From positions 1 to 35,896 of the forward strand of contig JAIECQ010000192.1 of assembly GCA_029068395.1 (NCBI GenBank): a DNA stretch of 35,896 bases. Reading direction: 5' to 3'. The position numbers and the translations under genes are program-made. Origin of the DNA: Rikenellaceae bacterium (GTDB lineage: Bacteria > Bacteroidota > Bacteroidia > Bacteroidales > Rikenellaceae). Shown here piece after piece: positions 1-31,447 of this stretch; the first letter of the stretch is position 1; each line of letters starts with the position of its first letter. The notes below the pieces were generated by a model that saw nothing but the letters and a program-made list of their open reading frames with translations, ran no database searches and was not told the DNA's origin.

Positions 1-242
1 GGAACTCATCCGATTATGGATATATCAAGTTCACCTCCGGCTCTAATTCCGTGGAGTTTCCCGCTGTCGGTTACCGCAACTACTCGGACGGTTCGTTGAG
101 CAGCGCGGGTGCGTACGGGCGTTATTGGTCGTCAGTTGCGTATTATTCTAACGACGCGTACAACCTGTACTTCAGTAGCAGTAATTTGAGCGTGAGTAGC
201 CGCAATAAGCAGCTCGGTCGTAGCGTGCGTTGTGTCCGCTAA
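1..242 (+). CDS. 3' end of a FISUMP (Fibrobacter succinogenes major paralogous domain) type protein, variable cassette C1; 5' end lies outside the window
   Basis: In-frame translation from nt 3: NSSDYGYIKFTSGSNSVEFPAVGYRNYSDGSLSSAGAYGRYWSSVAYYSND...GRSVRCVR*. Colinear with the longer copy at 3695-4237. Confidence 0.75.
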   Translation, partial: NSSDYGYIKFTSGSNSVEFPAVGYRNYSDGSLSSAGAYGRYWSSVAYYSNDAYNLYFSSSNLSVSSRNKQLGRSVRCVR

Positions 243-466
243 ATATTAATACTTTGGTTCTTTGATTTCTTTGATTCTTCCCCGAGGGCTTGCGTAAGAG
301 GCAGAGGTGGGGTAAGAGAGCGGTTTGGGTTATGCGGTGAGGCTGATTGTGTGGCGTAACAATTGAAGAGGGGTGATGTCAGGTGTCGGCAACCGGCATA
401 ACATGTGTGCAAGTTGTTCACAAGGTGTTTTGTAATGTCTCGATAACGATTTACGTATTTAATTCT

Positions 467-474
467 TATATTTG
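467..474 (+). promoter_or_regulatory. Bacteroidetes-type -7 box (TATATTTG) upstream of the exonuclease gene
   Basis: Matches TAnnTTTG 7 nt before the ATG at 482. Confidence 0.45.
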
Positions 475-481
475 CAGACAA

Positions 482-1237
482 ATGGAGAACAGAGAGGGAA
501 AATATCGGGCCAGCATCTCTAACGAAGAGGTTAACGACCTGTCTTTGACGGCTTTCGACGGTGAGATAATCATTGTCGACGGTCCTGATCAGAGTCAGGC
601 CGCCGCTTATTTGTCCTCGTTGGATGTCATAGGCTTCGACACAGAGAGCCGTGTGGTATTTGTAAAGGGTGTCAGAAGCACCATATCGCTGGTACAGCTA
701 TCGGGACCAGACCGCGCATACCTCTTCAGGGTCAACCTGTGTCCGTTGTCGTCAGAGATAGTAGAGGTGCTTCAGAGCCGCACAATAGTCAAGGTGGGTT
801 TGGCCATAGGCGACGATATCAACCGCATGCAGACGGTAAACCGCACTCTCTGTCCGCAAAACTTTGTAGACTTGCAGTCATTGGTCGGCCATTTCGGCAT
901 AGAGGAGATGGGGCTTAAGAAGATATGCGCCATAGTGCTTGGCTTGCGTATATCAAAGGCCCAGCGTCTTAGCAACTGGAATGCTGTCAATCTCACCGAG
1001 GCGCAACGCATATATGCCGCTACCGACGCGTGGATATGCCTCATGATATACAGAAAGCTCATGGCCGACAGAAAAGATATACCCGTTGCTGTTGTCAATG
1101 CAAGTGTCACTGCGGCTAAAAAGAATGTCAAAGAGAGTCCTCGACGCCGTTACCGTCACCGCCGCAAAAAAGCGTCTGACACAGACAAGCAATCGACTGT
1201 ACAGCCAGAGAAATACAGTGTCAAGAGCGGAGAGTGA
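482..1237 (+). CDS. 3'-5' exonuclease domain protein (RNase D-like)
   Basis: IGFDTESRV...GPDRAYLFRV...KVGLAIGDDI...VDLQSL...LTEAQRIYAATDAWICLMIYRKL: DEDD-type exonuclease motifs. The ATG at 482 is preferred over the ORF-track start at 383. Confidence 0.85.
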   Translation: MENREGKYRASISNEEVNDLSLTAFDGEIIIVDGPDQSQAAAYLSSLDVIGFDTESRVVFVKGVRSTISLVQLSGPDRAYLFRVNLCPLSSEIVEVLQSRTIVKVGLAIGDDINRMQTVNRTLCPQNFVDLQSLVGHFGIEEMGLKKICAIVLGLRISKAQRLSNWNAVNLTEAQRIYAATDAWICLMIYRKLMADRKDIPVAVVNASVTAAKKNVKESPRRRYRHRRKKASDTDKQSTVQPEKYSVKSGE

Positions 1238-1289
1238 TGTCAATGTCCGTTTCCGGACTTTTGCCCCGTAAGACTGTCAGAATGGGGCT

Positions 1290-1536
1290 TTGATTCCCTC
1301 GGGGAAGAATCAAAGAAATCAAAGAACCAAAGTATTAATATTTAGCGGACACAACGCACGCTAAAACCGTAGTGCATACTGTAGTAATTGCCCACGTACA
1401 AATCACTGCCACCGAAGTACAGGTAGTACGCGCCGCCGGAACTGCGCGCAACTGACGACCAATAGTAGCCCTCGCGCCCCTCGTATGTCAACGAACCGGA
1501 CGAGCCGCTACGGCCACCGACAGCGGGAAACTCCTC
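1290..1536 (-). pseudogene. Silent FISUMP variable cassette C2 plus conserved tail
   Basis: Reverse strand reads EFPAVGGRSGSSGSLTYEGREGYYWSSVARSSGGAYYLYFGGSDLYVGNYYSMHYGFSVRCVR*, with in-frame TAG just upstream (TAG GAG GAG TTT). Not in the ORF track because it has no start. Confidence 0.75.
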
Positions 1537-1586
1537 CTAATTGAAAACAGTTGTGTGTCTGAAGGGCACAGGGAAAACAAAAGCGG

Positions 1587-2099
1587 TTACATATCGTCTT
1601 TGACCACCTCTTCTATTGCGTTTAGGGCCTCTTCATATCCGAATCCTCGTGAGGCGGCAAATCTGAGCAGTTTGCCTTTAAGGTCGTAATCGTTCTTGGC
1701 GTTAATGCCGCGCTTTTTGTATGACAGCATCTCGACCAGCCTGCGGTGTCTCTCATCACTGTCTGAAAAGAGTTCTATTGCCGCATCTATCAACTCGTCA
1801 TCTATGCGTTTGGCTCTGAGGGCTGCTCGTATCTTATAGTCGCCCCAGCCCGAGAAACGTATCTTGTCTTCCACAAAGGCGTGTGTGTAACGTTCCTGGT
1901 CGATGTAACGCTGTTCGACCAACATATCTACAATGTCACGTTGTGCCTGAGCATCAACACCCCAGCGCGTCATCAGCCTTATGGCATCATAACAGCACCT
2001 CTCGCCACGCGAGCAAAGTACCATTAGTTTGTCTGCCGCCTCCGACGGGGTCACTTCCCGTTTGACGACATCTTTTTTATATCCTCTCTTATATCTCAT
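1587..2099 (-). CDS. recX: Regulatory protein RecX
   Basis: 170 aa; RGERCCYDAIRLMTRWGVD...LVEQRYIDQERYTHAFVEDKIRFSGWGDYKIRAALRAKRID is characteristic of RecX. Confidence 0.85.
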   Translation of the reverse strand: MRYKRGYKKDVVKREVTPSEAADKLMVLCSRGERCCYDAIRLMTRWGVDAQAQRDIVDMLVEQRYIDQERYTHAFVEDKIRFSGWGDYKIRAALRAKRIDDELIDAAIELFSDSDERHRRLVEMLSYKKRGINAKNDYDLKGKLLRFAASRGFGYEEALNAIEEVVKDDM

Positions 2100-2129
2100 A
2101 ACCGGTAATATATGCCTATTGTCTTGTTA

Positions 2130-2137
2130 CAAAGGTA
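2130..2137 (-). promoter_or_regulatory. -7 box TACCTTTG upstream of recX
   Basis: TAnnTTTG on the minus strand ~30 nt upstream of the recX start. Confidence 0.4.
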
Positions 2138-2145
2138 ATAATGCC

Positions 2146-2988
2146 CTATTTTTTGACTGCGCTGACAAAACGCTCTTTACCGAACATGTCGCGATATATC
2201 TTGACGTCAGAGAGTCCGGCCCTCACGCACACATCGGCGGTCTCTGCACCGAAAGCCTCGTTTATCTCGAAGTATAGCATGCCTGATGGCGACAGCGACG
2301 CCGCAGCAAGGGTGGCTATCTTGCGGTAGAACAACAGAGGGTCGTTGTCGGGTACAAAGAGGGCCAAGTGGGGCTCATGTTCCAACACGGTGTTGCTCAT
2401 CTCATTGCGTTCGCTGTGTCGTATGTATGGCGGATTGCTTACTATTATGTCAGCCATATCGAGTGAGTGACATTTGAGTATGTCGCACCGGCAGAAACGC
2501 ACCTGACGGCATCCGAGTCGCCGGCTGTTCTCTTGCGCTACGGCAAGAGCTCCTGCGCTGATATCCAGTCCCAGGGCCTCGGCACCAAGCTCTTGCGCAA
2601 GGGTTATGGCTATCACTCCGCTGCCGGTGGCTATGTCGGTCAATCGTAATTTATCGACACCGCGCCATTGTTCTGCAATCATGGATACCAGCTCTTCGGT
2701 CTCGGGTCGTGGTATCAGCACATTGTTGTCAACCGAAAACCTGCGACCCATGAAAAATGTGTATCCGGTGACATAACGCACGGGTTCTCCCTGCTTGATT
2801 CTCGTTAACGCACTCTCCACATCGTACTGCGATGCGACACATTCGCGTTCGGGATGGGCTATAAGATCTGTTCTGTCTGCCGTCTCGAAATGGTCGAGCA
2901 GCACCATGGATACAGCCGCCGCCTCACGACGATCCATAACCTCGGACAGTGATGCCGATATGTGGCTGTAAAGTTCGCTTAATGTCAT
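2146..2988 (-). CDS. prmC: Peptide chain release factor N5-glutamine methyltransferase
   Basis: DIATGSGVIAITLAQELGAEALGLDIS ... IIVSNPPYIRHSE: HemK/PrmC motifs. Confidence 0.92.
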   Translation of the reverse strand: MTLSELYSHISASLSEVMDRREAAAVSMVLLDHFETADRTDLIAHPERECVASQYDVESALTRIKQGEPVRYVTGYTFFMGRRFSVDNNVLIPRPETEELVSMIAEQWRGVDKLRLTDIATGSGVIAITLAQELGAEALGLDISAGALAVAQENSRRLGCRQVRFCRCDILKCHSLDMADIIVSNPPYIRHSERNEMSNTVLEHEPHLALFVPDNDPLLFYRKIATLAAASLSPSGMLYFEINEAFGAETADVCVRAGLSDVKIYRDMFGKERFVSAVKK

Positions 2989-3016
2989 GACAATGTCTTA
3001 GCTGTATTACCGGTTA

Positions 3017-3024
3017 CAAAGATA
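3017..3024 (-). promoter_or_regulatory. -7 box TATCTTTG upstream of prmC
   Basis: TAnnTTTG on the minus strand ~29 nt upstream of the prmC start. Confidence 0.45.
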
Positions 3025-3039
3025 TGTTTTTTGTGACTA

Positions 3040-4229
3040 TTTCTGCACCGACAGGCTTTGGCCCCGGCAGGCTGTCAGAAGGGGTCTGTGCCCCCCTCGG
3101 GTAAGAATCAAAGAAATCAAAGAACCAAAGTATTAATATTTAGCGGACACAACGCACGCTAAAACCGCCCTGCCTATTGTAGTAGCCCACGCCCAAATCA
3201 CTGCTAAGGAAGAGCAGGTAGTACGCGCTGCTAGAACTGGCCGCAACTGACGACCAATAGTAGCCCCACGTACCCGCATTGTTCAACGAACCGGACGAGT
3301 AGTTACGGTTACCGACAGCGGGAAACTCCACGGAATTATAGAGACATTATTGGTTGGGCAGAATAATTCTGCACCGGCAGGGCGGCCGAGGCACGAGGCC
3401 GCAACGGGCCTCGCCTCCCCCCGCGGAGGCCCGTAATCCCGCCACGCAATTGTAGGCAGTGACTAAGTCACGGTAGTGAAATGCGTCACTTTCACGCTTG
3501 CCTCCGCAGGCTCGGCCCGTGGCTCCTTCACGCTAAAGGGGCGTTAAGTGCGCAACCTGAGCAGCCGCCCTGCCTATTTCACGCCTCACTGCCAAAGTTC
3601 ACCATGTACTTGCCCCCGCTCCGGCAGACTATCGAAAGGGTCTGTGACCCCTCGGGGAAGAATCAAAGAAATCAAAGAACCAAAGTATTAATATTTAGCG
3701 GACACAACGCACGCTACGACCGTACTGCTTATAGCCGCTAAGTCCAGCACCCAAATCGCTGTTATTGAAGTTCAGTCTGTATGCCTCAGAAGAGCTTTTC
3801 GCAACAGACGTCCAATAGAGTCCGCTCTCACCCGCGACATACAACGTCCCGGACGAGACGTAACGCTCTCCGACAGCGGGAAACTCCACGGAATTAGAGC
3901 CGGAGGTGAACTTGATATATCCATAATCGGATGAGTTCCATCCTCCTCCGCGACTGACAGTACTGCCATTAATGAGATTCTGGAACTCTGTGTTAGTAGG
4001 CAGACGGTAACCCTCCGGGCACGGGTGGGTATTCCAGTTGCTGGGGTAAGTCGACGTGTTCCATGACCCGCTCGGAGTGGCGCCGCCTAACGCACCTGTG
4101 GTATTCCACGCCACATTGATGCCCCACTGGTAGAATTTGCCGTGTGACTCCGCGCGTGTACCATTGCACTCAGATGGCAGCTTGGTGGCGAAAGTAGCGC
4201 CGCCGGAGGCCTGTTTGGGGTTGGCGAGG
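3040..4229 (-). repeat. Composite repeat carrying two tandem FISUMP cassettes (C3 and C4) on the minus strand
   Basis: Shared tails (aatcaaagaaatcaaagaaccaaagtattaatattta), shared GC-rich block 3380-3560 also found near 14220-14400, 21440-21600, 30610-30770 and 35710-35880 (reverse complement). Confidence 0.8.
3140..3331 (-). pseudogene. Silent FISUMP variable cassette C3
   Basis: VEFPAVGNRNYSSGSLNNAGTWGYYWSSVAASSSSAYYLLFLSSDLGVGYYNRQGGFSVRCVR*; in-frame TAA five codons upstream of GTG (CAA TAA TGT CTC TAT AAT TCC GTG). Confidence 0.75.
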
Positions 4230-4237
4230 TCAGAGCA
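3695..4237 (-). pseudogene. 5'-truncated FISUMP gene, longest cassette C4
   Basis: Open frame LANPKQASGGATFATKLPSECNGTRAESHGKFYQWGINVAWNTTGALGG...CPEGYRLPTNTEFQNLI...SVRCVR*. FYQWG and CPEGYRLPT are typical of FISUMP proteins. No signal peptide; abuts and slightly overlaps the patatin stop codon. Confidence 0.7.
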
Positions 4238-6641
4238 CTATTCCTTTGGGTTTGAAGAGCAGCACGCCTATATTGAACATTACATAGTTGCGTCTCATTT
4301 GCGAGAGTGTGTAATAGGAGTAAGATAGGCTTATAGGACCTATCAGCGACTGGTACACTATCGAGACGTCGACAATGTATTTCATGTTTGAGCGCAGGTT
4401 GCTCCAGTTCTCTATGTTGGGCTTGAAGCAATATGCCGAGGCTTTGAGGTATGCCTCTTCGTTTATCTTGAATATTGGCATTATGCCGGCGGCAATATAG
4501 CTGTTGTTGTGAAACTCTGGTGTAAACAGGGTCTTGCTGTGGGGTGTGGGGGTGAAGGCCGGTGCAGACACTGCGGCAATGTAACTGTTGGAGTAACGCG
4601 GTGTTGTAGAGTATATTGCGTCGATGCTGTAGCCGATGTTGAAGTGGCGTCCTAATATGAAGTAGTCATCGCGCGAGAATCGGGCGCCGGCCCAGAAGCT
4701 GCGGTGAAACGACAGTTCGAGGCCTTGGTCCATAGAGACTGAGCCGGGCTGATATTTCTCGCGCTGTGAGGTGGCAAAGATAGAGATGTTCTGGTGGAGT
4801 CCCTGTGTGGGATATACGGGATAGTTGAGAGAGTTGCGCTCCAGCGACAGGTTGGCCGTGAAGTAGTTGAAGCCCGATATGTCGTATGTCTGGTTGTCGG
4901 TCACCGCCTGTGCGGGGAAATAGCCGTAGCGGTCGTGCCCCAGGGCGGCACGAAACTCCATTTTAGAGAGCCGGCCCACAGGGGTGCCTATGGCGGCGCT
5001 AAGATAGAGGTCGTTGTAGCGCAGGTAGTGCTGCGACGGCTTTTTATATGTTATGCTTTGGGTGTTGCCGCGGCCATAGTCGTAAAAGTTGTACGACAGG
5101 GCATTCTCGACGTAAAACGGGGTGCGGCCGCCATAAAAATTGAAGCGTGACGACAGTTGGGCGGCCGAATAGAAGCCGCCTATGTAACCGTCGAGTGTGG
5201 CCGTGAGGCTTATGCGTCCCAGGTTGTGGTACTGAAAGCCGAGATAGGCCTGGTTGACCGATGTTGATGATATGTTGACCCCGAGCATGGCCTTGAAGTC
5301 GGGTTTGTTGTGTATGTGCAGACGCAGGCGGTAACCGTCAAGAGAGTCGCAGTAGTTGGCCACGGGCAGTCCGCATGTGAGGAATCCCTCTGACACTATC
5401 TTGAAATAGTCGGCCTTGAAGGTGTCCATGTCTATCTCTTCGTCTTGACCGTCGCCGTTGCGGTCAGACAGCTGTCTTTTGATGTATAGCTTCTGGGCGG
5501 GTGTGAGTCCTTCTATCTTGAGCGACTTGATTGTCTCTTTGGGCAGCTGCGAACGGTAAAAGGCGCGCATGTCTTCAACTCTCTCTTTGGGTACGCGTCG
5601 TTTTATGCGCTCCATTATCACGGGCATGGAGGCTATGGCGTCGTCATAACCGCGGCTTATGATATACTCGGCCTTGCGGAAGTCCATCACTCCCACGTCC
5701 ATGGCGCGCGATATGGTTATGCCTATCGAGTCGGGTATTGAGTAATCGGTCTTGTTGGTGGTGAGCATCTCTATCTGGCCCGAGAAGGTCGATATGTCGG
5801 GTTTGCCCGAGACGCAGATGCTGCCTATGAGTATGTCGGGAGAGAACTCGGTAAGGGTCTCTCGCCAGGGATAGTTGTTGACAATGCCGCCGTCATACAT
5901 GAGCATGGAGTCGACGGTAACGGGCGGGAATACCAACGGTATGGCCATAGACGAGCGTATGGCGGTGCCAAGGTCGCCCGACGACCACAGATGGGGTGTT
6001 TTGCCGTATATGTTGGTCGACACGCAGCGGAAAGGTACGAACAGCTTGTTGAAATCGCCGCCCGAGTATGCTGTTGACGAGGTGAAGTAGGCGAGCATGG
6101 CCACGTCGAGCGATGTGGTGCTGATGAGTGACATTGAGGGCGACGACTCCTTGGAGGCACTCTGACGCGAGAACGAGAAGGCAATGCGTCCTTTGGGCTT
6201 GCGGCGCAGGGTGTCTGAGGGTGCGGAAGCATGCCACAGGCTGTCGTTGTAGATGAGGTGCTCGTCGAGCATGTCAGAGCGGTCGATGTTGAAGTCGATG
6301 TTTATCTGTGAGGGGGTGACGGGCTGCTTCTTGTAGAAATAGAGATAGCGATCTTCTATCTTGCCCGACACCCATGCGAGCACCTCGGGCGAGTTGAATA
6401 TCTCCTCCATCTGCTCGGGCGAGTATCCCGCCGCATACAGACCCCCTATTATGGCGCCCATTGATGTGCCGGTGATGTAATCGACAGGCACGCCGTTCTC
6501 TTCCAGCGCCTTGAGTACGCCTATGTGGTAAAGTCCTTTGGCGCCGCCGCCGCTGAGCACAACACCCACATTCTGGGCATAAGAGGTGGCCGAGATGGCA
6601 AAAAATAGCAGTAGCCAGGTCAGTATTATTGTCTTTTTCAT
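4230..6641 (-). CDS. Patatin-like phospholipase with C-terminal beta-barrel (surface antigen / PlpD-like) domain
   Basis: Signal peptide MKKTIILTWLLLFFAISATSYAQ; GVVLSGGGAKGLYHIGVLKAL; GTSMGAIIGGLYAAGYSPEQ; DGG motif; C-terminal barrel-like repeats. Confidence 0.88.
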   Translation of the reverse strand: MKKTIILTWLLLFFAISATSYAQNVGVVLSGGGAKGLYHIGVLKALEENGVPVDYITGTSMGAIIGGLYAAGYSPEQMEEIFNSPEVLAWVSGKIEDRYLYFYKKQPVTPSQINIDFNIDRSDMLDEHLIYNDSLWHASAPSDTLRRKPKGRIAFSFSRQSASKESSPSMSLISTTSLDVAMLAYFTSSTAYSGGDFNKLFVPFRCVSTNIYGKTPHLWSSGDLGTAIRSSMAIPLVFPPVTVDSMLMYDGGIVNNYPWRETLTEFSPDILIGSICVSGKPDISTFSGQIEMLTTNKTDYSIPDSIGITISRAMDVGVMDFRKAEYIISRGYDDAIASMPVIMERIKRRVPKERVEDMRAFYRSQLPKETIKSLKIEGLTPAQKLYIKRQLSDRNGDGQDEEIDMDTFKADYFKIVSEGFLTCGLPVANYCDSLDGYRLRLHIHNKPDFKAMLGVNISSTSVNQAYLGFQYHNLGRISLTATLDGYIGGFYSAAQLSSRFNFYGGRTPFYVENALSYNFYDYGRGNTQSITYKKPSQHYLRYNDLYLSAAIGTPVGRLSKMEFRAALGHDRYGYFPAQAVTDNQTYDISGFNYFTANLSLERNSLNYPVYPTQGLHQNISIFATSQREKYQPGSVSMDQGLELSFHRSFWAGARFSRDDYFILGRHFNIGYSIDAIYSTTPRYSNSYIAAVSAPAFTPTPHSKTLFTPEFHNNSYIAAGIMPIFKINEEAYLKASAYCFKPNIENWSNLRSNMKYIVDVSIVYQSLIGPISLSYSYYTLSQMRRNYVMFNIGVLLFKPKGIVL

Positions 6642-6958
6642 AACCCTGTGTGATAAATCGTCTGTCAGGCGGGCGGTGCCGTGTGCAGACGTTTTGTGAC
6701 CGACCGTCATCTGCCGTCGCTTCATGAACATCGGTTTATTCACGGTGTCTGTGTCGGCAACGCTCCTGTCCGAGGCTCCAAAAATAAGCAATATTGGGCT
6801 AAGATGGTGCCGGAGTTCTTAAAAAGACCAACAAAAGGCACAAAAAGGAGTGTCATTAAGAGTGTGCATGTGGCTGGCGCTTTGAAAATTGGCAGAAAAA
6901 GACTATTTTTGTCGCGCGCCGAGGCGTTGTCTTGGCTGTGAACGAAAAAATGTGATAT

Positions 6959-8047: not shown

Positions 8048-8218
8048 GCGGCTCCTGAAGAGGTTGCAGGGGGGCACGGCCTGGCGTGGTGGCTTGACTT
8101 GTACAGGGAGAGAGTAGGGCTGAGGCCAAACAGATATCAGGGAGTTGTGGCAATAGGCAAGTGCTGAGGCAGTGGGGGCCGGCGGGTGTTTACAGATGAG
8201 TCAATTAAAACAAGGGAT

Positions 8219-9043: not shown

Positions 9044-9151
9044 CAACGGAGTCGGTGTGCGGGGTTGATGTCCTGCCGCCGACAACTTTTTTGGGCGCCG
9101 TGGCGGCGGCATGTCGTGGGAAAATTTAGTTGCAATCATGGGAAAAATAAT

Positions 9152-9159
9152 TACCTTTG
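9152..9159 (+). promoter_or_regulatory. -7 box TACCTTTG upstream of the glycogen synthase/phosphorylase gene
   Basis: TAnnTTTG ~72 nt upstream of the ATG at 9231. Confidence 0.4.
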
Positions 9160-9230
9160 GGGTTTCTTAGTGCCCCCAAATGGGGGTGGTGTTGAAATAA
9201 AGTAACTGAAAAACAATAGCTTAACCCAAT

Positions 9231-13493: not shown

Positions 13494-13677
13494 CCCACTT
13501 GACAATACGGAACTGCCGGGGATGACTTGCCGGTACTGCCGGTGATGGTTTGCTGGCACTGCCGTTATGTTGCTGGCACTGCCGTTATTTTGCTGGCACT
13601 GCCTCCGGCGGCCCTTCCGGGGGAGGGGTCACGGACCCCGTTTTGATATGTTTGAGGGCAAACTAAGCGGATAAGTA

Positions 13678-13736
13678 CGAAAGATAGGAGTAAAGGTGTT
13701 TCGACTTTAGTCTCACACCTTTACCCCTATCTTTCG
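13678..13736. repeat. Long hairpin H1 with conserved core TTTCGAC-N4-GTCTCA
   Basis: cgaaagataggagtaaaggtg / cacctttacccctatctttcg arms, one mismatch. Confidence 0.85.
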
Positions 13737-14113
13737 TTTTTTGCCCTTGGGCTGAGTGCCTGGAAGATATTCAACATGGGCCATGACTCTCGACGGAAAG
13801 GGTGCGGAAACAAAACAGAAAATCATAACAGCAGAGCGGTAACCATAAGCCGCACAGCCGCAACCACCGGCACAGCGGAGAGCGGCGCGGAGCCTGCGGA
13901 GGGCACAGCGTGAAAATGAAGAGCATCACTGCCGCCCCTAATTCACTGTCATATATGTTGCTGTGCGGGGCTGCGGCCCTCCGTTGGGCGGAGGCTCCGG
14001 GCCGCTCGGGCTTCGTTCCTCAGCCCGGGCATAAGGAATTCTTGCTTACGGCATACTTCGTTATGCCGGCGATAAGGAATAGTGTGCGGTTTCGTTTCAC
14101 TCAGACCGCGGTG

Positions 14114-14578: not shown

Positions 14579-14773
14579 GTGGAGTTTCCCGCTGTCGGTT
14601 ACCGTTACTACTCGTCCGGTTCGTTGAGCGGTGCGGGTACGTGGGGCGGCTATTGGTCGTCAGTTGCGCTTGGTTCTAGCAGCGCGTACTACCTGTACTT
14701 CGATAGCAGTGGTTTGTACGTAGATGGCGGCAATAGGCAGACCGGTTTTAGCGTGCGTTGTGTCCGCCAATGA
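14579..14773 (+). pseudogene. Silent FISUMP variable cassette C5
   Basis: VEFPAVGYRYYSSGSLSGAGTWGGYWSSVALGSSSAYYLYFDSSGLYVDGGNRQTGFSVRCVRQ*; in-frame TAA TAA CGC CCC TCT AAT TCC precedes GTG. Confidence 0.75.
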
Positions 14774-14976
14774 TTAATTCTTTGGTTCTTTGATTTCTTT
14801 GATTCTTCCCCGAGGGCTTGCGTAAGGGTTAGAGTTGGCCCGGCGCTGGCTGGTGATTCAGTTGTGCGTGCTTTGCCTCTCTGCTGTTATGCTTTGCCGA
14901 ACTTCTTCCGCACTCTTTTCCGTCGAGAGTCCTGCCCCTGCCTAATATCATTTAGGACCACTCCTTAGGCCCAAAA

Positions 14977-15034
14977 CGAAAGATATGGATAAAGGTGAGA
15001 GACGATAGTCGAACGCCTTTATCCATATCTTTCG
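14977..15034. repeat. Long hairpin H2 (right end of E4)
   Basis: cgaaagatatggataaaggtg / cgcctttatccatatctttcg arms; core in same orientation as H1 relative to the inverted repeat. Confidence 0.85.
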
Positions 15035-15415
15035 TACTTCTGTTCTTAGTTGTTCCTCAAACATATCAAAACGGGGTCCGCGACCCCTCCCCCGGAAGGG
15101 CCGCCGGAGGCAGTGCCAGCAAAATAACGGCAGTTCCAGCAAACCCGTAACGGCAGTGAAGCCAATACATAGCGGGCAGTGCAGTGTGTTAGTAGAAGCG
15201 GCAATACCGCAAGTGATGTCCGGTAAAAAATAGGTTAGGTGTATAATAAAAGAATATTCTCAGCGATATTATATTAAACAAAAAAATCACAGTTCTGCAT
15301 GTTGAGACAGTAATCACGTATTGAGTGGTAAGGTTTTTGAGGGATGGGGAGTGGTTTGGGGTTAGACAGGGAATAATATTAATAACTTCATATAATAAAT
15401 CAATAGCATCAAGAT

Positions 15416-18052: not shown

Positions 18053-18143
18053 TCTTTTTTTGGTAAAATACGAATTATTTAGATATTTTTGTGTGCACAA
18101 ATATTTTTATTTCATTGTGGATATAGTCCTTTCTAATTACAAC

Positions 18144-19280: not shown

Positions 19281-19290
19281 CAGCATATTT

Positions 19291-19851: not shown

Positions 19852-19921
19852 GCCGCACTGCTGTCGCTTTTACTCCTCTTGCGACAAAGACCAACACCTT
19901 TGTCATCAAAAATAGAACATC

Positions 19922-20551: not shown

Positions 20552-20704
20552 CCACCCCCCAGCCTGCCATTGCAGCCACGGTACCGAGATGACTTGCTGG
20601 CACTGCGGTTAATGATTTGCTGGCACTGCCTCCGGCGGCCCTTCCGGGGGAGGGGTCACGGACCCCGTTTTGATATTTTTGAGGAACAACTAAGCGGATA
20701 ATTA

Positions 20705-20763
20705 CGAAAGATAGGAGTAAAGGTGTTTCGACTCGAGTCTCACACCTTTACCCCTATCTTTCG
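20705..20763. repeat. Long hairpin H3
   Basis: cgaaagataggagtaaaggtgTTTCGACTCGAGTCTCAcacctttacccctatctttcg. Confidence 0.85.
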
Positions 20764-21233
20764 TTTTTGGCCCTTGGGCTGAGTGCCTGGAAGATATTCA
20801 ACATGGGCCATGACTCTCAACGGGAAGGGTGCGGGAGCAAAACAGAAACAATAACAGCAGAGCATAATGTCAGCACGGAAGCATAACAGCACAGCCGCAA
20901 CCACCGGCACAGCGGAGAGCGCCCCGGGGCCTGCGGAGGGCATAGCATGAAAGTGAAGAGCATCACTGCCGTCACTAATTCACCGCCATACATATTATTC
21001 ACCGATATGCGGCCCTCCGTTTGCGGAGGCTCCGGGCCGCTCGGGCTTCGTTCCTCAACCCGGTCATAAGGAATTTTTGCTTACGGCATACTTCGTTATG
21101 CCGGTGATAAGGAATAGTGTGCGGTTTCGTTTCACTCAGACCGCGGTGGGGTGCTTTAATTGATTAGTTATTTACTGCTGTTTTCATTCCTTGTGGTCTC
21201 ATTTCTTTTGCTTTCATTCCCTTGGTGGTTGTG

Positions 21234-21253
21234 AGCCGGCGCCAGCGCCGGCT
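21234..21253. repeat. Short hairpin AGCCGGCGC-CA-GCGCCGGCT
   Basis: Terminal pair is A-T where copy 14114 has G-C. Confidence 0.8.
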
Positions 21254-21803: not shown

Positions 21804-21998
21804 GTGGAGTTTCCCGCTGTCGGTTGGCGCAATAACGACTCGTCCGGTACGTTGTACTACGCGGGTGTGTACGGACTCTATTGGTCGTCAGTTGCGTATG
21901 ATTCTAACTACGCGTACAGACTGTACTTCAGTAGCAGTGATTTGGGCGTGATTGCTCCGGTTAGGCGTAACGGTTTTAGCGTGCGTTGTGTCCGCTAA
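21804..21998 (+). pseudogene. Silent FISUMP variable cassette C6
   Basis: VEFPAVGWRNNDSSGTLYYAGVYGLYWSSVAYDSNYAYRLYFSSSDLGVIAPVRRNGFSVRCVR*; in-frame TAA CAC CCC TCT AAT TCC precedes GTG. Confidence 0.75.
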
Positions 21999-22186
21999 AT
22001 ATTAATACTTTGGTTCTTTGATTTCTTTGATTCTTCCCCGAGGGGGGTCACGGACCCCTCTCGATAGCCTGCCGAGCAAAGTGAATCTGCTCCGTTATGT
22101 ATTGCCATGCTGTTCCTGCACCCTTTTCCGCGAGCGGTCATGCCCCTGTTGAATACCTTTCAGGCACAACCTCCCAGGGCCAAAAA

Positions 22187-22244
22187 CGAAAGATATGGAT
22201 AAAGGTGCGAGACGATAGTCGAACGCCTTTATCCATATCTTTCG
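22187..22244. repeat. Long hairpin H4 (right end of E5)
   Basis: cgaaagatatggataaaggtgCGAGACGATAGTCGAAcgcctttatccatatctttcg. Confidence 0.85.
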
Positions 22245-22381
22245 TACTTATGTTCTTAGTTGTTCCTCAAACATATCAAAACGGGGTCCGTGACCCCTCC
22301 CCCGGAAGGGCCGCCGGAGGCAGTGCCAGCAAGCCATTATCCGCAATGAACGCAAACCGGCAGTTCCAGCTACAAGGGCAT

Positions 22382-23758: not shown

Positions 23759-23867
23759 ATATCTTAAGTTGTTTTGTCTTCGGTTGTTAAATTGTGCCTT
23801 TCGTTTTGACGGGGCGTAGATGTGCCGGGACTTGTCTTGCCCGGCATATTTGTGCCGATAGGGTCTT

Positions 23868-25634
23868 TCAAAGGGCTTTTATCTCGAATGGCATGAGCGC
23901 CATCACCTTGTTGTTGGCGCGTGCCATGCGGCGCAGGCGTTCGCCAGTGCGTTGCATGAACAATGCGATGCCGTCGTCGGCAGTCTGCGCATTGTCTGCA
24001 AACAGCCTTAGCAGCATGTTTATATGTCTCTGGCTGTTGCTGCGGGTGGTTATGGTGTATTTGTCGAGTCCGGCGGCGTCGGCTGCCAGCAATACGGCTT
24101 CAGACAGTCCGCCATAGGTGTCGACCAGGCCTATGTCGGCGGCGTCGGCACCGCTCCACACACGCCCCTGGGCAATGCTGTCGACATAATCGCGGCTGAG
24201 ATTGCGGCCCTCTGCCACCACGTCGACAAAACGGTCGTATGTGCGGTCTACTGACGATTGCAGCCTCTTTTGTTCATAACGGTCTATGGGTCTTAGCATG
24301 CTGCCCATGTCGGCGTATGCGTTGCTTTTGACGGTGGAGTGAGTCACTCCGAGATTGTCTTCAAGGGCCTGGCCTATGTCAAAGCTGACTCCGAATACCC
24401 CTATTGAGCCTGTGATGGTGGCGCGGTCGGCACATATTATGTCGGCAGGGGCGGCGATATAATAGCCTCCCGAGGCCGCATAGTCGCCCATAGACACCAC
24501 AACGGGCTTCTCTTTCTGCAACAGGCTGACCTGACGGGCTATTATATCGGCGGCCATGGCCGAGCCTCCCGGACTGTTGATGCGCAACACCACCGATTTG
24601 ACTTTGTCATCGTCGCATGCCTCTGCCAAGGCCTCACACAGAGACTGGCTGCCGACCTCGCCCCGTTGGCCTGTGCCGTCGACTATATCACCCTCGGCAT
24701 ATATCACCTCTATGCGGTTGCCTGCTGCCGACGAGCTGGCCGAGCAGAGGTCCACATAGTCGGCAAAAGGTATCAGGATGCGGTTTTCGCCCAACATAGA
24801 GGCCAGCATGTCGTTCATCTGGTCGCGGTAAAGAAGCGAGTCTATCATGCCTGTCTCGACACCTTTTTGGGGCGAGTATATGCTAAGTCTGTCGGCATAA
24901 CTCTGAAGCAATGCCGAGTCTATGTCGCGTGAGGCCGATATCTCTGAGACGATATTGCCCCATATCGAGTTTATGAGCACCTCTGACTGGTGGCGGCTCT
25001 CCTGGCTCATGTCCGTCTCGGTGAAAGGCTCTATGGCGCTTTTGTAGCGTCCGTGACGTATTATCTGGGGGTGAACATCCGTCTTGTCGAGCAGCCCTTT
25101 GTAAAATATGACCTCAGAGGCCATGCCCTGCCATTCGAGCGAGCCTATGGGGTTCAGATATATGTGGTCAGAGACCGAGCATAGGTAATAAGAGCCTTGC
25201 GAGTAACTGTCGGCATAGCTTATTACGGGCTTGCCCGAGGAGGCAAACAGGCTCAGCGCCTTGCGTATCTCTGACAAAGAGGCTATGCCTATAGATAAAG
25301 GGGTGTCTATGTTGAGGTATATGGCCTCTATGCGGTTGTCTGTGGCTGCTGTCTCTATGGCTGTCACAACATCGAGCAGGGCCATCTGTCTGTTTACCGA
25401 CACCCTGCCGGTAAAGAGCGAGGCCGACACCGGAGGCTGTGACGGATTGTCTGAGATGTTCTCGCTGAGAGTGATCTCAAGCACGCTGCCCTTTTTGATA
25501 TGCTTATGGCCGCTGTCTGAGTTATATGACGATTTGAGTATGGCAATAACCATCAGCATACAGAACGTATTGACAATGCTGCATGCGACAATGGCGACAA
25601 TACAGGCGAGAACGGTTTTTAAAAACTGCTTCAT
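23868..25634 (-). CDS. sppA: Signal peptide peptidase SppA (67K-type, two repeats)
   Basis: 588 aa; VVLRINSPGGSAMAADII...KPVVVSMGDYAASGGYYIAAPADIICADRATITGSIGV. Confidence 0.92.
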   Translation of the reverse strand: MKQFLKTVLACIVAIVACSIVNTFCMLMVIAILKSSYNSDSGHKHIKKGSVLEITLSENISDNPSQPPVSASLFTGRVSVNRQMALLDVVTAIETAATDNRIEAIYLNIDTPLSIGIASLSEIRKALSLFASSGKPVISYADSYSQGSYYLCSVSDHIYLNPIGSLEWQGMASEVIFYKGLLDKTDVHPQIIRHGRYKSAIEPFTETDMSQESRHQSEVLINSIWGNIVSEISASRDIDSALLQSYADRLSIYSPQKGVETGMIDSLLYRDQMNDMLASMLGENRILIPFADYVDLCSASSSAAGNRIEVIYAEGDIVDGTGQRGEVGSQSLCEALAEACDDDKVKSVVLRINSPGGSAMAADIIARQVSLLQKEKPVVVSMGDYAASGGYYIAAPADIICADRATITGSIGVFGVSFDIGQALEDNLGVTHSTVKSNAYADMGSMLRPIDRYEQKRLQSSVDRTYDRFVDVVAEGRNLSRDYVDSIAQGRVWSGADAADIGLVDTYGGLSEAVLLAADAAGLDKYTITTRSNSQRHINMLLRLFADNAQTADDGIALFMQRTGERLRRMARANNKVMALMPFEIKAL

Positions 25635-25679
25635 ATATTTATTTTTAGTAATAATTCAATTTTGTAAAAATAAATAAAA

Positions 25680-25687
25680 TATCTTTG
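25680..25687 (+). promoter_or_regulatory. -7 box TATCTTTG upstream of the Mrp-family gene
   Basis: TAnnTTTG in the divergent intergenic region. Confidence 0.4.
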
Positions 25688-25807
25688 TATTTGGCTATCG
25701 GGCTGCTTTTTGTTTAAAAATAGGTGTCACAGGGGGTGCGCACCCGTTTCGACAGCTTGATGTTCAGCGGGGTGGCATGGCACTATGCGACAGTAAACAC
25801 AAGATAT

Positions 25808-26854
25808 ATGACTAACGAGGAGATAATAGCTCTGTTGTCGACCGTAGTTCATCCCGAACACGGTTGTGACATCGTCTCTGCCGGCATGGTAGAGAGCCTT
25901 GAGGCCGATGGCGGCAAGGTGCGTTTCACATTGGCGCTGACCCGTGCGCGCGATCCCTTTGCTCCGGCCGTCAAGAAGGCGGCAATCGCGGCGATTGAAG
26001 AGGTGTTTCCAGGCACACAGATAACGGTGCTCATCAAGGAGCCGGCCCCCAAGGCCGTCAAGAAAGAGACGCCGGCGCCCGCCGAGAGGACCGTAAAACA
26101 CATAATAGCCATATCGTCGGGCAAGGGCGGCGTGGGCAAGTCGACGGTGACGGCATCGCTGGCTGTGACCCTCTCGCGGCTCGGTTACAGGACGGGTGTG
26201 CTCGACGCCGACATATACGGTCCCAGCATGCCCAAGATGTTCGCTTTGGAGGGTTATCTGCCTGTGGCCTCCGGTCAGGAGGAGCATGAGTCTATCGAGC
26301 CGGCCGAGCGTTACGGCGTCAAGGTGATGTCGATAGGCTTCTTCATAAAGCCCGAGGATGCTTTGGTGTGGCGCGGACCTATGGCCACCAACGCACTGCG
26401 TCAGCTTATGAACCAGACGGCATGGGGTGAGCTTGACTTTCTGCTGATAGACCTGCCCCCGGGAACGGGCGACATACACCTGACGGTCATACAGGAGCTG
26501 GGCATAGAGGGGGCGCTTATAGTGAGCACACCCCAGCAGGTGGCGCAGGCCGATGTGCTCAGGGGCATATCCATGTTCAGGGCAGAAAAGGTTAATGTGC
26601 CCGTGTTGGGCATTGTCGAGAATATGTCGTGGTTTACCCCGCGCGAGTTGCCTGACAACCGCTATTACATATTCGGACGCGAGGGTGTGGCTCCACTGGC
26701 CGAGCGCGAGGGTGTGGAGCTGCTGGCACAGGTGCCTCTGATAATGGGCGTGGCAGACGGTGGCGACACCGGAGAGCCTGCCGCCCTGACCGAGCCGCAG
26801 ACCACTCGCATATTTGAAGAACTTGCAAACAGACTGATCGTAAAATTGGGATGA
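25808..26854 (+). CDS. Mrp/NBP35 family Fe-S carrier ATPase
   Basis: DUF59-like N-terminus, SSGKGGVGKSTVTASLAVTLSRLGYRTGVLDADIYGPSMPKMF, DLPPGTGDIHLT; ATG at 25808 preferred. Confidence 0.9.
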   Translation: MTNEEIIALLSTVVHPEHGCDIVSAGMVESLEADGGKVRFTLALTRARDPFAPAVKKAAIAAIEEVFPGTQITVLIKEPAPKAVKKETPAPAERTVKHIIAISSGKGGVGKSTVTASLAVTLSRLGYRTGVLDADIYGPSMPKMFALEGYLPVASGQEEHESIEPAERYGVKVMSIGFFIKPEDALVWRGPMATNALRQLMNQTAWGELDFLLIDLPPGTGDIHLTVIQELGIEGALIVSTPQQVAQADVLRGISMFRAEKVNVPVLGIVENMSWFTPRELPDNRYYIFGREGVAPLAEREGVELLAQVPLIMGVADGGDTGEPAALTEPQTTRIFEELANRLIVKLG

Positions 26855-28089
26855 TACTTTATAATCTGGCTTTGGAGCTTTATGCTCTTGTTGTAAGACT
26901 TTTATCGCCGTTCAACCCCAAGGCTGCGGCGTGGACCAAAGGCAGGCGTCGCATATTCGCCCGCATGAGAGAGAGCATAGCGCCCACCGACCGTGTGGCG
27001 TGGTTTCATGCCGCCTCGTTAGGTGAGTTTGAACAGGGGCGTCCCCTTATGGAGGAGTTTGCCAAGCGTTATCCCGGTCACAAGATATTGCTGACATTCT
27101 TTTCGCCCTCGGGCTATGAGGTGCGCAAAGATTACAAGGGGGCCGATTATATCTTCTATCTGCCTTTGGATACGCCCGGACGTGTGCGTCGCTTTCTCGA
27201 CATTGCCCATCCCGAGGTGGCGGTGTTCATAAAGTACGAGTTCTGGAAGAATTACCTTACGGCGTTGAGGCGTCGCGGGGTGCGCACCTATGTGGTTTCG
27301 GCCATCTTCTCGCCCTCACAGCTATTCTTCCGCTATTACGGAGGCGCTTATCGCAAGCTGCTGCGCTGTTTCGACCACCTCTTCGTGCAGAACGAACAGT
27401 CGCGTCTGCTGCTGGCCTCTGTGGGGGTCGATAATGTCACCGTGTGCGGCGACACCCGTTTTGACCGCGTGATAGAGATTGTCGAGGCCGCCGCTCTGCC
27501 CGATGCACGCGTTGTGCACTTCGTGGGCGACGACAAGGTGTTTGTGGCCGGCAGCACATGGCCACCCGACGATGACATTATTATAGGGCTGATAGCCGCT
27601 TATCCCGACATTCGCTTTATCATAGCTCCCCATGAGCTGGGAAGGGCCAAGATAACATCGCTTTGTGAGCGCATAGCGTCACTCGGGGCATCGGTGGTGC
27701 GCTTCACCGACTATGACGCTGTCGGGCAGACGACTCCGGCACGGGTGATGATTCTCGACACCATAGGTCAGCTCTCGCGTGTTTACCGTTATGGCTTTGC
27801 TGCCTATATAGGGGGCGGTTTCGGCGTGGGCATACATAACACTCTTGAGGCGGCAACCTTTGGCATGCCTATAGCATTCGGGCCCAATTACAAGCGCTTC
27901 AGCGAGGCGATAGGATTGATAGAGGCGGGGGCGGCACGGTCGCTATCGTCGTCTGACGAGGCGATAGCATGGCTCGGCCGGCTGCTCGGCAACCCCGATA
28001 TCATGCGCTCAGGAGCCGAGGCGGCCCGCAGTTTTGTGCTCGGCGGCAAAGGGGCCGTCAAGAAGATTCTCGACCACGGCTTGTTGTAA
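26851..28089 (+). CDS. waaA: 3-deoxy-D-manno-octulosonic acid (Kdo) transferase
   Basis: WFHAASLGEFEQGRPLMEEF...ILLTFFSPSGYEVRK...FIKYEFWKNYL...IGGGFGVGIHNTLEAATFGMPIAFGPNYKRF; ATGA overlap with the upstream gene. Confidence 0.92.
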   Translation: MILYNLALELYALVVRLLSPFNPKAAAWTKGRRRIFARMRESIAPTDRVAWFHAASLGEFEQGRPLMEEFAKRYPGHKILLTFFSPSGYEVRKDYKGADYIFYLPLDTPGRVRRFLDIAHPEVAVFIKYEFWKNYLTALRRRGVRTYVVSAIFSPSQLFFRYYGGAYRKLLRCFDHLFVQNEQSRLLLASVGVDNVTVCGDTRFDRVIEIVEAAALPDARVVHFVGDDKVFVAGSTWPPDDDIIIGLIAAYPDIRFIIAPHELGRAKITSLCERIASLGASVVRFTDYDAVGQTTPARVMILDTIGQLSRVYRYGFAAYIGGGFGVGIHNTLEAATFGMPIAFGPNYKRFSEAIGLIEAGAARSLSSSDEAIAWLGRLLGNPDIMRSGAEAARSFVLGGKGAVKKILDHGLL

Positions 28090-28176
28090 GATTCTGTCAT
28101 GAAGGGTTTCGAGGTTTTTTGTCGGGTTGTGCGGCTTGCGGCCTTTCATGCCCGTCATGAATAATAAAAGACAGAT

Positions 28177-29313
28177 ATGAAGATAGTTTTTCTTGGTACG
28201 GCCCATCCCTATCGCGGGGGCATAGCTTCGTTCAACGAGATGTTGGCCCGTCAGTTGTCTGCTCTCGGGCATGAGGTCGAGATAATAACCTTTACGCTTC
28301 AATATCCATCTTTTCTATTCCCCGGCAAGACCCAATACAGCGATTCGCCCGCACCCGACGACCTCGTAATAGACCGTATGCTTAACTCGATAGCTCCGTG
28401 GAGCTGGCTAAGGACGGCCTGCGAGATAAAACGCCGCCGTCCCGACATGCTCTTCGTGCGTTACTGGTCGCCATATCTCGCCCCGGCGCTCGGCTCCGTG
28501 TGTCGCATGGTGCGTAAGGCAGGCATTGAGGTGGTGGCATTGGCCGACAACATAATACCGCATGAACGTCACTTCTATGACAATATGCTCACGCGTTACT
28601 TTATCGGCTCGGCAGATCGTTTTGTCTGCATGAGTCGTCAGGTCGAAGGCGAGCTGGCCATGTTCGGTAGCGGCAAGCCCGTCTCTTTCGCTCCGCATCC
28701 CATATATTCCAATTACGGTGACCCCATAGACCGCACACGGGCATGCGACCTCATAGGGCTCGACCCGTCAGAGCGTTATGCCCTCTTTTTCGGCCTTATA
28801 CGTGACTATAAAGGTCTGGACCATTTGCTCGATGCCTGGGCCGATTATAAAAAGCACGATGGCGCCAATGGCAAGAAACTATTGGTGGCAGGCGAGTTTT
28901 ATGCCGACAAAGCAGCATACATGCAGCAGATCGCTCATCTTGGCATATCTGACAGCGTGGTGATGCACGACAGATTCATACCCGACGCCATGGTGGCAGC
29001 CTATTTTTGCGCCTCCGATATGATAGTGCAGCCTTACAAGACGGCAACACAGAGCGGAGTGACTCAGATAGCCTATCATTTCGGCACCCCCATGATAGTG
29101 TCCCCTGTGGGAGGATTGCCCGAGATAGTGCCCGACGGCAAGGTCGGTTATGTGGTCGAAAAAGACAGATTGCCGGAAGCGATGGAGCGATGCTTCGACG
29201 CCGGCATCAACGCCATCCTAAAGGCTAACATAGCCATCGAAAAAGAACGATTCTCGTGGCGCCGCATGGCAGAAACAGTGATATCACAGCCGTGTTGCAG
29301 CCACGGCCGGTGA
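28177..29313 (+). CDS. Glycosyltransferase family 4
   Basis: GTAHPYRGGIASFNEMLARQL...DMIVQPYKTATQSGVTQIAYHFGTPMIVSPVGGLPEIV. Confidence 0.85.
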   Translation: MKIVFLGTAHPYRGGIASFNEMLARQLSALGHEVEIITFTLQYPSFLFPGKTQYSDSPAPDDLVIDRMLNSIAPWSWLRTACEIKRRRPDMLFVRYWSPYLAPALGSVCRMVRKAGIEVVALADNIIPHERHFYDNMLTRYFIGSADRFVCMSRQVEGELAMFGSGKPVSFAPHPIYSNYGDPIDRTRACDLIGLDPSERYALFFGLIRDYKGLDHLLDAWADYKKHDGANGKKLLVAGEFYADKAAYMQQIAHLGISDSVVMHDRFIPDAMVAAYFCASDMIVQPYKTATQSGVTQIAYHFGTPMIVSPVGGLPEIVPDGKVGYVVEKDRLPEAMERCFDAGINAILKANIAIEKERFSWRRMAETVISQPCCSHGR

Positions 29314-29428
29314 TGGTTTGCTGGCACTGCCGGAAATGCCTTGCCGGCACTGCCTCCGGCGGCCCTTCCGGGGGAGGGGTCGCGGACCCCGTTTTGATAT
29401 TTTTGAGGAACAACTAAGCGGATAAGTA

Positions 29429-29485
29429 CGGATAATGTGATAAAGGCGTTTCGACTATCGTCTCACACCTTTATTGCATTATCCG
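29429..29485. repeat. Long hairpin H5 with different stem sequence
   Basis: cggataatgtgataaaggcgTTTCGACTATCGTCTCAcacctttattgcattatccg. Confidence 0.85.
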
Positions 29486-29676
29486 TTTTTGGCCCTTGGG
29501 CTGAGTGCCTGGAAGATATTCAACAGGGGCAGGACTCTCGACGGAAAGAGTGCGGAAGCAAAGCAGAAAACATAACAGCAGCGTAGCAAAGCATTACGGG
29601 CGGCACGGAAGCATAGCAGCACAGCCGCAACCACCGGCACAGCGGAGAGCGGAACGGGGCCTGCGGAGGGCACAGT

Positions 29677-30395
29677 ATGAAAGTCATGTGCATAATCACC
29701 GTTCCTGATTCACCGCCATACATATTATTCACCGATATGCGGCCCTCCGTGGGGCGGAGGCTCCGGGCCGCTCGGGCTTCGTTCCTCAGCCCGGACACAA
29801 GGAATTTTGGTTTACGGCATACTTCGTAATGCTGGGCATGCAGCAAGCAGAACAGCAGCGCTGCAACCACAAGCAGCACAGCCGAACCACCAGCACAGCG
29901 GAGAGCGGCGCGGAGCCTGCGGAGGGCACAGCATGAAAATGATGGCATCACTGCCGTGACTAATTCACCGCCCTACATATTATTCACCGATATGCGGCCC
30001 TCCGTTGGGCGGAGGCTCCGGGCCGCTCGGGCTTCGTTCCTCAGCCCGGACACAAGGAATTTTGGCTTACGGCATACTTCGTTATGCCGGGCATGCAGCA
30101 AGCATAACATTAGTGCTGCAAACATAAGCAGTATTGCCGCAACCACCGGCCACCAGCACAGCGGAGAGCGGAACGGAGCCTGCGGAGGGCACAGCAAGAA
30201 AGTTATGTGCATCACTACCGCCGTCCCTAATTCACCTCTCTACATATTACTCACCGATGTGCGGCCCTCCGTTGGGCAGAGGCTCCGGGCCGCTCGGGCT
30301 TCGTTCCTCAGCCCGGACATAAGGAATTTTTGCTTACGGCATACTTCGTAATGCCGGACATAAGGAATAGTGTGCGGTTTCGTTTCACTCAGACC
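29677..30395. repeat. Tandem triplication of a structured ~260-nt block
   Basis: Repeat starts at ~29677, ~29933 and ~30196, each containing ...attcaccgatatgcggccctccgt...cgggccgctcgggcttcgttcctcagcccgg...aaggaatttt... Confidence 0.8.
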
Positions 30396-30426
30396 GCCCT
30401 GCCTGTTTCCCTGCCGGAGCGGGGTG

Positions 30427-30446
30427 GGCCGGCGCCAGCGCCGGCC
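30427..30446. repeat. Short hairpin GGCCGGCGC-CA-GCGCCGGCC
   Basis: 9-bp perfect arms. Confidence 0.8.
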
Positions 30447-30964
30447 TCACGAGGAGGACTTCAAGGCGTGATGAAATTCGGCCATGAGGCGGGAAGCGGG
30501 CAGGGACGCTTTGGCTGTTGCTTTTGGTAAGACTTTGTAGCTTACAGGTTGGCTTTATGCCTGTGATGGCGGGGCGGCTGTTCGGGTTACGCACCTAACG
30601 CCCCTTTAGCGTTAAGGAGCCACGGGCCGAGCCTGCGGGGGCAAGCGTGAATGTGACGCGCATAACCGCCTACCCTTAGTCACTGCCTATAATTGCGTGG
30701 CGGGGTTACGGGCCTCCGCGGGGGGAGGCGAGGCCCGTTGCGGCTCGTGCCTCGCCGCCCTGCCGGTGCAAAAGCCTGCCGGCGCAAAACAACCTGTGCA
30801 GAAAGCTCTCGCAAAAGCATCTCGGTTAAATGAAAGTGTGCGGTTTCGTTACTCTCAAGCCGCCCTGCCGGTGCAAAACCTACCTGTACAAAAAGCCCAC
30901 GCGGAACAAAGTTTCCTAAAACCACTAACCCCTGCCGCCCAACTAATAACGTTCCTCTAATTCC

Positions 30965-31159
30965 GTGGAGTTTCCCGCTGTCGGTTACCGCTACTACTCG
31001 GGCGGTTCGTTGAGCAGCGCGGGTGTGTACGGCCACTATTGGTCGTCAGTTGCGGGCAGTTCTGGCGGCGCGTTCAGCCTGTGGTTCGGTAGCAGTGATT
31101 TGGGCGTGACCAGTGGCAACCGTAAGCGTGACGGTTTTAGCGTGCGTTGTGTCCGCTAA
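30965..31159 (+). pseudogene. Silent FISUMP variable cassette C7
   Basis: VEFPAVGYRYYSGGSLSSAGVYGHYWSSVAGSSGGAFSLWFGSSDLGVTSGNRKRDGFSVRCVR*; in-frame TAA TAA CGT TCC TCT AAT TCC precedes GTG. Confidence 0.75.
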
Positions 31160-31447
31160 ATATTAATACTTTGGTTCTTTGATTTCTTTGATTCTTCCCC
31201 GAGGGCTTGTGTAAGTGACAGAGGAGGGGGAGGCTTGTTCCGTTGCTGTTCGAGCCATGCTGCCATACCGAATCAAAAACACTGTAAAATAAGACCTGTG
31301 AAGCAATCCCATGCCGGCATAAAACATGCTGAGGCAAACCCTGTAGGCCAAGTCCTGCTGTCAAAAAAACTTATGCAGTACATAAAGACACGAATGTGAC
31401 AATGCTCGGCTGATGCAGATGTGGGAAGGAGACGATAGACAAATAAA

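Follow-up and report, generated by a model that had tools for sequence, protein, structure and literature searches.

Diversity-generating retroelements (DGRs) with C-type-lectin-type targets, such as those of Bordetella phage BPP-1, Treponema denticola (TvpA), and Bacteroides phages (DUF1566/Fib_succ_major targets), are the described systems with which the present one is best compared. T. denticola has at most 7 DGR target genes (PMC4891356), and an early survey counted at most 4 variable repeats (VRs) (PMC3521204). Larger numbers occur in the "highly repetitive" DGRs of Yan et al. (2019), for example in Pseudomonas costantinii, with 91 pairs of template repeat (TR) and VR (PMC6642488). Target recognition in BPP-1 requires the VR, the initiation of mutagenic homing (IMH) element, and a downstream hairpin, and nothing upstream (PMC3240598). 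Here, we analyzed a 35,896-bp stretch of DNA from a Rikenellaceae bacterium ("the window", contig JAIECQ010000192.1), which carries seven cassettes related to the 3′ end of the FISUMP domain. Our results make it near certain that these cassettes are DGR VRs, 7 of the ~125 in the genome. Our best explanation, which we regard as probable, is that the DGR writes into a dispersed library of silent cassettes, which is shuffled by gene conversion and donates to expressed genes.

The window is the complete contig C104 of draft genome G000 (2.08 Mb, 202 contigs, 84% complete, contamination 0.15%). In the labels used below, G stands for a genome, C for a contig, and L for a stretch of DNA taken from contigs for analysis.

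RESULTS

The window cassettes differ from their templates at adenines

A first-pass annotation of the window had described seven cassettes with nearly identical flanks and had proposed a DGR-derived variable-region family. The seven cassettes and their positions were borne out by two block sequences, each counted seven times in the window: TATTGGTCGTCAGTTGCG was found 7 times against a chance expectation of 0.04, and CGTGCGTTGTGTCCGC gave 7 exact copies and one chance match with 3 mismatches. The cassette edges given there hold broadly, except that the copy at 1342-1536 starts with GAGGAG instead of GTGGAG and the copy at 14579-14773 ends in CGCCAATGA instead of CGCTAA. The variable codons are mostly NNY as described, and the codons between them are fixed in most copies; the exception is the copy at 3695-4237, which deviates in these "fixed" blocks (TATTGGACGTCTGTTGCG).

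The annotation had pointed to an A-rich template and a DGR-type reverse transcriptase (RT) as features to look for elsewhere in the genome, and both are present on contig C108, with the RT directly downstream of the template. The RT (L001/L134:448-1851) is the single RT match in the genome; it matches RVT_1 and carries the SQ motif GLPIGNLTSQLFSNIYLN (motif 4) and a catalytic YVDD. It matches PHROG 1423 "Reverse transcriptase" with E 1e-88, and its best match in the PDB is 8ub7 (E 1e-31), a 328-aa RT that we take to be the RT of the Bordetella phage DGR. It is similar to many phage RTs at 30-38% identity, and the closest named genome sharing it is an uncultured Alistipes (70% identity), so that our organism is probably a gut-type relative of Alistipes. 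Altogether, the SQ motif, the YVDD, and the database matches mark it as a DGR-type RT. The template, TR1 (187 bp, L001:224-410), stops 38 bp short of the RT start codon and combines the fixed blocks of the cassettes with AAC or AAT at the variable codons, 17 AAY codons in total. Contig C80 ends with a second TR, and contig C108 opens with the end of a further TR copy. Immediately 3′ to the repeat, VRs and TRs differ in the manner of IMH versus IMH*, with CGCTAAATATTAATAC or CGCCAATGATTAATTC in VRs and CGCCAAGAATTT in TRs.

To quantify the variation, we compared the VRs against six TRs, giving 71 columns with A in some template and 129 columns without A. The seven window VRs carry 100 new bases at template-A columns versus 25 elsewhere (Fisher p ~1e-26), and the 116 complete VRs of the genome carry 1,629 versus 388 (odds 9.3), so that changes are concentrated at template adenines genome-wide. 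The bias is alike in VRs outside complete genes (orphans), in truncated copies, and in the VRs of tandem-domain genes, with values of 0.19-0.21 for A columns against 0.02-0.035 for the others.

Changes at adenines outside AAY codons are very rare, in orphans as elsewhere. This may reflect RT preference or selection; we favor RT preference because a synonymous adenine (TCA) is also unmutated, as are the non-AAY adenines of orphans. By contrast, the BPP-1 RT is reported to mutate A, more strongly in some contexts than in others, in each of the 16 contexts examined (PMC12875486). None of the 116 VRs contains a stop or a frameshift. Since writing restricted to AAY codons cannot make stops, these intact frames are explained without selection.

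Relatives carry tandem arrays of templates

In genome G012, the RT is preceded by a row of ten TR-like copies. The VR at 3863 differs from the last array copy (TR@9777) by 8 changes, 8/8 at A, and another VR differs from the preceding copy (TR@9341) by 7 changes at A and 1 elsewhere, while each of the two VRs is far from the remaining copies. Therefore, distinct members of the array serve as templates. Tandem repeats of ~180-240 bp are also found ahead of the RT in further relatives. Two TR pairs occur in the sister genome G032, one of them at the chromosomal place equivalent to C80/C108; no RT was found in this genome, and the template-repeat pair at L224 5040-5450 (G032:C43) has no RT adjoining it within the stretch examined.

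In several relatives, matches to the Rfam RT-7 RNA (RF03028) adjoin the tandem TR units. In L185, the matches at 2915-3077, 3340-3484, and 3733-3902 directly precede, on the minus strand, the TR-sized repeats at 2724-2907, 3143-3330, and 3541-3725. Such adjacency, often in 2-3 tandem copies, recurs in L187, L188, L189, L190, L192, and L193, and the L190 match is above the curated cut-off of 117 bits (125.5 bits). Our own locus has one match just before TR1, which falls short of this cut-off (L134 61-210; 38 bits), and another lies just upstream of a TR in G032. No Rfam RT-7 match was obtained in L090, though its spacers look similar by eye. This arrangement suggests that RT-7 is part of DGR template transcripts.

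Most variable repeats lie outside complete genes

Across the genome, we counted 129 copies of the VR 3′ end (57 on the plus and 72 on the minus strand) versus 0 in a reversed control. Three of these ends belong to templates, which leaves ~125 VRs. Across 268 genomes from the family, many such ends are seen in the genus alone (130, 23, 14, and 1). Twelve of the 116 complete VRs lie in tandem-FISUMP genes, 41 carry some FISUMP backbone (some of them cut by contig ends), and 63 consist of the VR only; about 30 of those beyond the VR-only class are internal, start-less, 5′-truncated FISUMP fragments. Neither the majority of copies outside genes nor the multiple templates had been anticipated by the first-pass annotation. 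Translation of orphans from their first GTG was considered and rejected, given stops just upstream and no ribosome-binding site by eye.

The tandem-FISUMP genes encode as many as four FISUMP domains, each ending in a VR, and the proteins of L126 and L143 have lipoprotein-like starts by eye; these few genes are likely the expressed products. The cassette FISUMP domain matches Pfam Fib_succ_major, and Lcl_C is above cut-off in the tandem genes. Both have been reported as DGR target domains (PMC4159848, PMC8143477). The predicted structure of the variable domain has a predicted local distance difference test (pLDDT) score of 80, and its best PDB match, partial and weak (E 0.2), is the Legionella Lcl C-terminal domain. 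A FISUMP profile search of PDB sequences gave no match, a literature search found no paper combining the terms DGR and FISUMP, and the viral contigs that we searched gave matches solely in an unrelated phage replication gene.

Truncated copies start at recurrent points, most often codons 14-20 of the domain, then codons 81-86, and few others, and all share a 3′ flank until about +50, where similarity drops at once. VR-only copies have a single common left edge. The first portion of the 3′ flank is also found in the sister species, whose aligned genes differ by ~10-20% in DNA. Judged by the requirements of BPP-1 (PMC3240598), the VR-only unit would resemble a minimal target. Inverted-repeat stems of 7-12 bp follow several tandem-gene VRs; those after orphans are mostly not above a shuffled control.

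Cassette bodies are conserved and exchanged

The truncated FISUMP bodies lie outside the template and are thus not covered by TR copying. For pairs of start-less fragments with the same junction, the proportion of synonymous differences (pS) is 0.33 and that of nonsynonymous differences (pN) is 0.055, giving a pN/pS of 0.17, and the non-coding flanks have diverged by 0.19. A nearest-pair analysis of truncated bodies gives a pN/pS of 0.16, and there is one stop in 68 domain matches. These values argue that the truncated fragments are probably under purifying selection.

Segmental exchange among copies was evident in three ways. First, some VR pairs have long identical tracts beside unrelated ones (e.g., L102/L156 and L123 6773/10776). 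Second, the length modules of the VRs are linked between neighbors and independent at a distance, with 56 combinations in 93 VRs. Third, flanks and bodies are discordant: in the pair L123/L095, the flanks are 96% identical and the bodies have ~50 differences, which indicates body replacement. Since several templates create linkage, the significance of mosaics obtained by column shuffling is too generous, and we restrict the mosaic evidence to the extreme VR pairs and the flank/body discordance.

An expressed-type gene carries a half-domain swap. In this gene, on L142, domains 2 and 3 are identical over 280 nt and then diverge at GYRLPT, where about ten silent fragments also begin. From there on, domain 2 is of the other backbone type and most resembles dispersed cassettes and another gene domain (82-86%).

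The orphans are best read as a silent library

Because of the selection and mosaic evidence, we read the orphans as a silent library feeding expressed genes. In this mechanism, the RT on C108 would reverse-transcribe RNA of the A-rich templates arrayed upstream of it, miscopying the adenines of AAY codons, and the cDNA would overwrite VRs wherever a VR end and its ~50-bp 3′ flank are present. In a few cases, the VR ends a tandem FISUMP domain of a large protein; such proteins, some of which bear a clear lipoprotein signal, would be the likely expressed products. The orphans would be written in place by the DGR, trade segments among themselves through gene conversion, and supply the expressed genes with 3′ half-domains. 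What the sequence itself provides for this reading is the RT, the TRs, the A-directed differences, the copy number, the truncation classes, the mosaicism, the apparent selection on bodies, and one half-domain swap in L142; continued writing, donation from orphans to genes as their function, and surface exposure are what we infer. The fuller form of the proposal is a two-tier system, in which a multi-template DGR mutates >100 silent cassettes and homologous recombination delivers the variants to a few expressed tandem-domain surface proteins. We put this form forward tentatively, as a plausible arrangement that falls somewhat short of being probable.

Several observations weigh against the silent-library reading. 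A near-identical donor for the swapped half-domain of L142 was not found (best 83-86%), so that no transfer out of a silent cassette into a gene was seen directly. The low pN/pS may be inherited in part from the gene family that supplied the cassettes. One window copy, VR 4 (3698-3887), seems to be no longer written: it has 10 changes at non-A template columns versus 17 at A columns, and it is 93.6% identical to a sister-species VR (L226, region ~5717) in unrelated surroundings, so that it is either old and not rewritten or exchanged between species. No Avd accessory gene (PF05635) was found above cut-off in the 84% complete genome; Avd is not known to be universal among DGRs, and we do not treat its absence as excluding one. 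The long inverted repeat after the VR is not kept in most cassettes, and BPP-1 needs one (PMC3240598). Finally, contigs may be chimeric, and since the draft is incomplete and often broken at VRs, the template array is incompletely resolved.

The strongest rival holds that the orphans are by-products, VR ends that were spread by mobile or duplicating intergenic elements and are still overwritten by the DGR with no role of their own. Many orphans do lie in intergenic islands of 1.5-2.5 kb bounded by long inverted arms, which suggests that orphans spread within a repeat element. The upstream (5′) arm has one orientation with respect to the VR in 21/22 cases and the downstream (3′) arm in 17/22, at a near-constant position. 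The common left edge of the VR-only copies points the same way, and neither the intact frames, which AAY-only writing leaves free of stops, nor the unmutated non-AAY adenines of orphans call for selection. Mere by-products would fit poorly with the low pN/pS and near-absence of stops in FISUMP bodies outside the template, and with the swap in the expressed gene on L142 at exactly a cassette start point. As such, we consider this rival possible, yet rather unlikely.

A second rival would make the truncated fragments new RT-made insertions from target mRNA, with a fixed 3′ end and variable 5′ truncation, like the pseudogenes of long interspersed nuclear elements (LINEs). The 3′ edge fixed at +50 and the several different 5′ edges are in its favor. 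However, the 5′ edges cluster at a few recurring positions and have upstream island sequence in common, which fits the duplication of a few truncated founders, and we know of no report of DGR RTs integrating at new sites. Consequently, we regard such insertion as improbable.

An artefact of assembly or binning, with repeats of several strains mis-joined, appears more improbable still. Many contigs end in a VR and the draft is of metagenome type, but contamination is low, many orphans lie deep within contigs beside ordinary genes, and 23 VR ends recur in like contexts in the sister genome G032, which was assembled independently. A paralogous FISUMP family that had simply diverged in the ordinary way, with no DGR, would account for the difference columns lacking adenine and partly for the copy at 3695-4237; this reading is refuted for the family as a whole by the RT, the A-rich template, and the A bias over the 116 VRs, and can practically be dismissed.

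Organization of the window

VR 1 (53..239, plus strand) has lost its upstream part at the contig start, and FISUMP of the 3′-fragment kind is visible from base 3. Its 3′ flank TAAATATTAATACTTTGGTTCTTTGATTTCTTTGATTCTTCCCCGAGG (240..289, plus) is common to most cassettes and ends sharply at about +50. VR 2 (1345..1534, minus) and VR 3 (3143..3329, minus) are VR-only orphans with common 3′ flanks at 1292..1344 (minus) and 3090..3142 (minus), the former containing a perfect 9-bp inverted repeat, CTTTGATTC/GAATCAAAG. VR 2 is immediately downstream of a recX-like gene (1587-2099). A VR also flanks recX on this side in the sister species, but its sequence is different. The 5′-truncated, start-less FISUMP fragment at 3695..4237 (minus) is the sole window copy with a long upstream FISUMP part, beginning at about codon 14 of the domain, and it abuts the stop of a patatin-like gene (4230-6791). 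It contains the apparently frozen VR 4 (3698..3887, minus), which has its common 3′ flank at 3645..3697 (minus).

Two further orphans lie in islands with inverted-repeat bounds. VR 5 (14581..14767, plus) has the second flank type CAATGATTAATTC, with its common 3′ flank at 14768..14817 (plus) and island arms at 13507..13745 (left, plus) and 14968..15185 (right, minus). VR 6 (21806..21995, plus) is followed by its common 3′ flank at 21996..22048 (plus), and its island arms are at 20594..20839 (left, plus) and 22111..22355 (right, minus). The last orphan, VR 7 (30967..31156, plus; common 3′ flank 31157..31209, plus), has a left repeat arm upstream (29318..29548, plus), for which a partner arm was not found.

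Within the island arms, we observed a 20-23-bp hairpin (window 13677-13737, 20704-20764, and 29428-29486; L113 2499-2557; L219 6806-6862). Its sequence varies between copies with both sides staying complementary, as if structure were kept rather than sequence. The outer ends of the islands (e.g., window 13507-13600) consist of degenerate tandem units of ~24 bp (TTGCTGGCACTGCCGGTGATGG) in variable number, adjoining unique sequence. Between species, when the gene order of L219 (G032) is set against that of our C177/C106 (L159, L132, and L133), the breaks coincide with VR cassettes and include one apparent inversion; dispersed VRs may have driven rearrangement, or some contigs may be mis-joined.

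DISCUSSION

If the silent-library reading is correct, DGRs can keep a genome-wide stock of variants, each tested only once it has moved into an expressed gene, and would not be limited to in-place editing of a few genes. The cell would thereby be spared the cost of continual mutation in a working protein. Mutation would be separated from expression in a bacterium, as in the silent cassettes of Borrelia, but the diversity would arise by reverse transcription. In addition, the orphan VRs would form a nearly selection-free record of writing by a DGR RT, from which base and context preferences could be measured in nature.

The present system has much in common with the known DGRs with C-type-lectin-type targets, namely an RT with DGR motifs, an A-rich TR, A-directed differences in VRs, a VR at the 3′ end of a ligand-binding-type domain, and remote targets. 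It is unlike them in having ~125 VRs in a 2 Mb genome, most of them outside complete genes, several tandem templates, and no Avd found. With the "highly repetitive" DGRs (PMC6642488), it shares very many TR/VR-like repeats and several TRs; however, the P. costantinii case has few A-to-N changes and VRs in one giant adhesin, whereas the present system has strongly A-directed changes and dispersed copies. The RT-7 RNA (RF03028) is repeated in some relatives once per TR-like unit, and the tandem templates beside it would give this Rfam family a testable role.

Finally, the Borrelia vls system (PMC2632889, PMC11499132) resembles the present one in its few expressed sites, its many start-less partial copies with conserved edges, and its segmental exchange. 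Here, by contrast, donation to an expressed gene is something that we infer, and the cassettes are dispersed and owe their diversity to reverse transcription at adenines.

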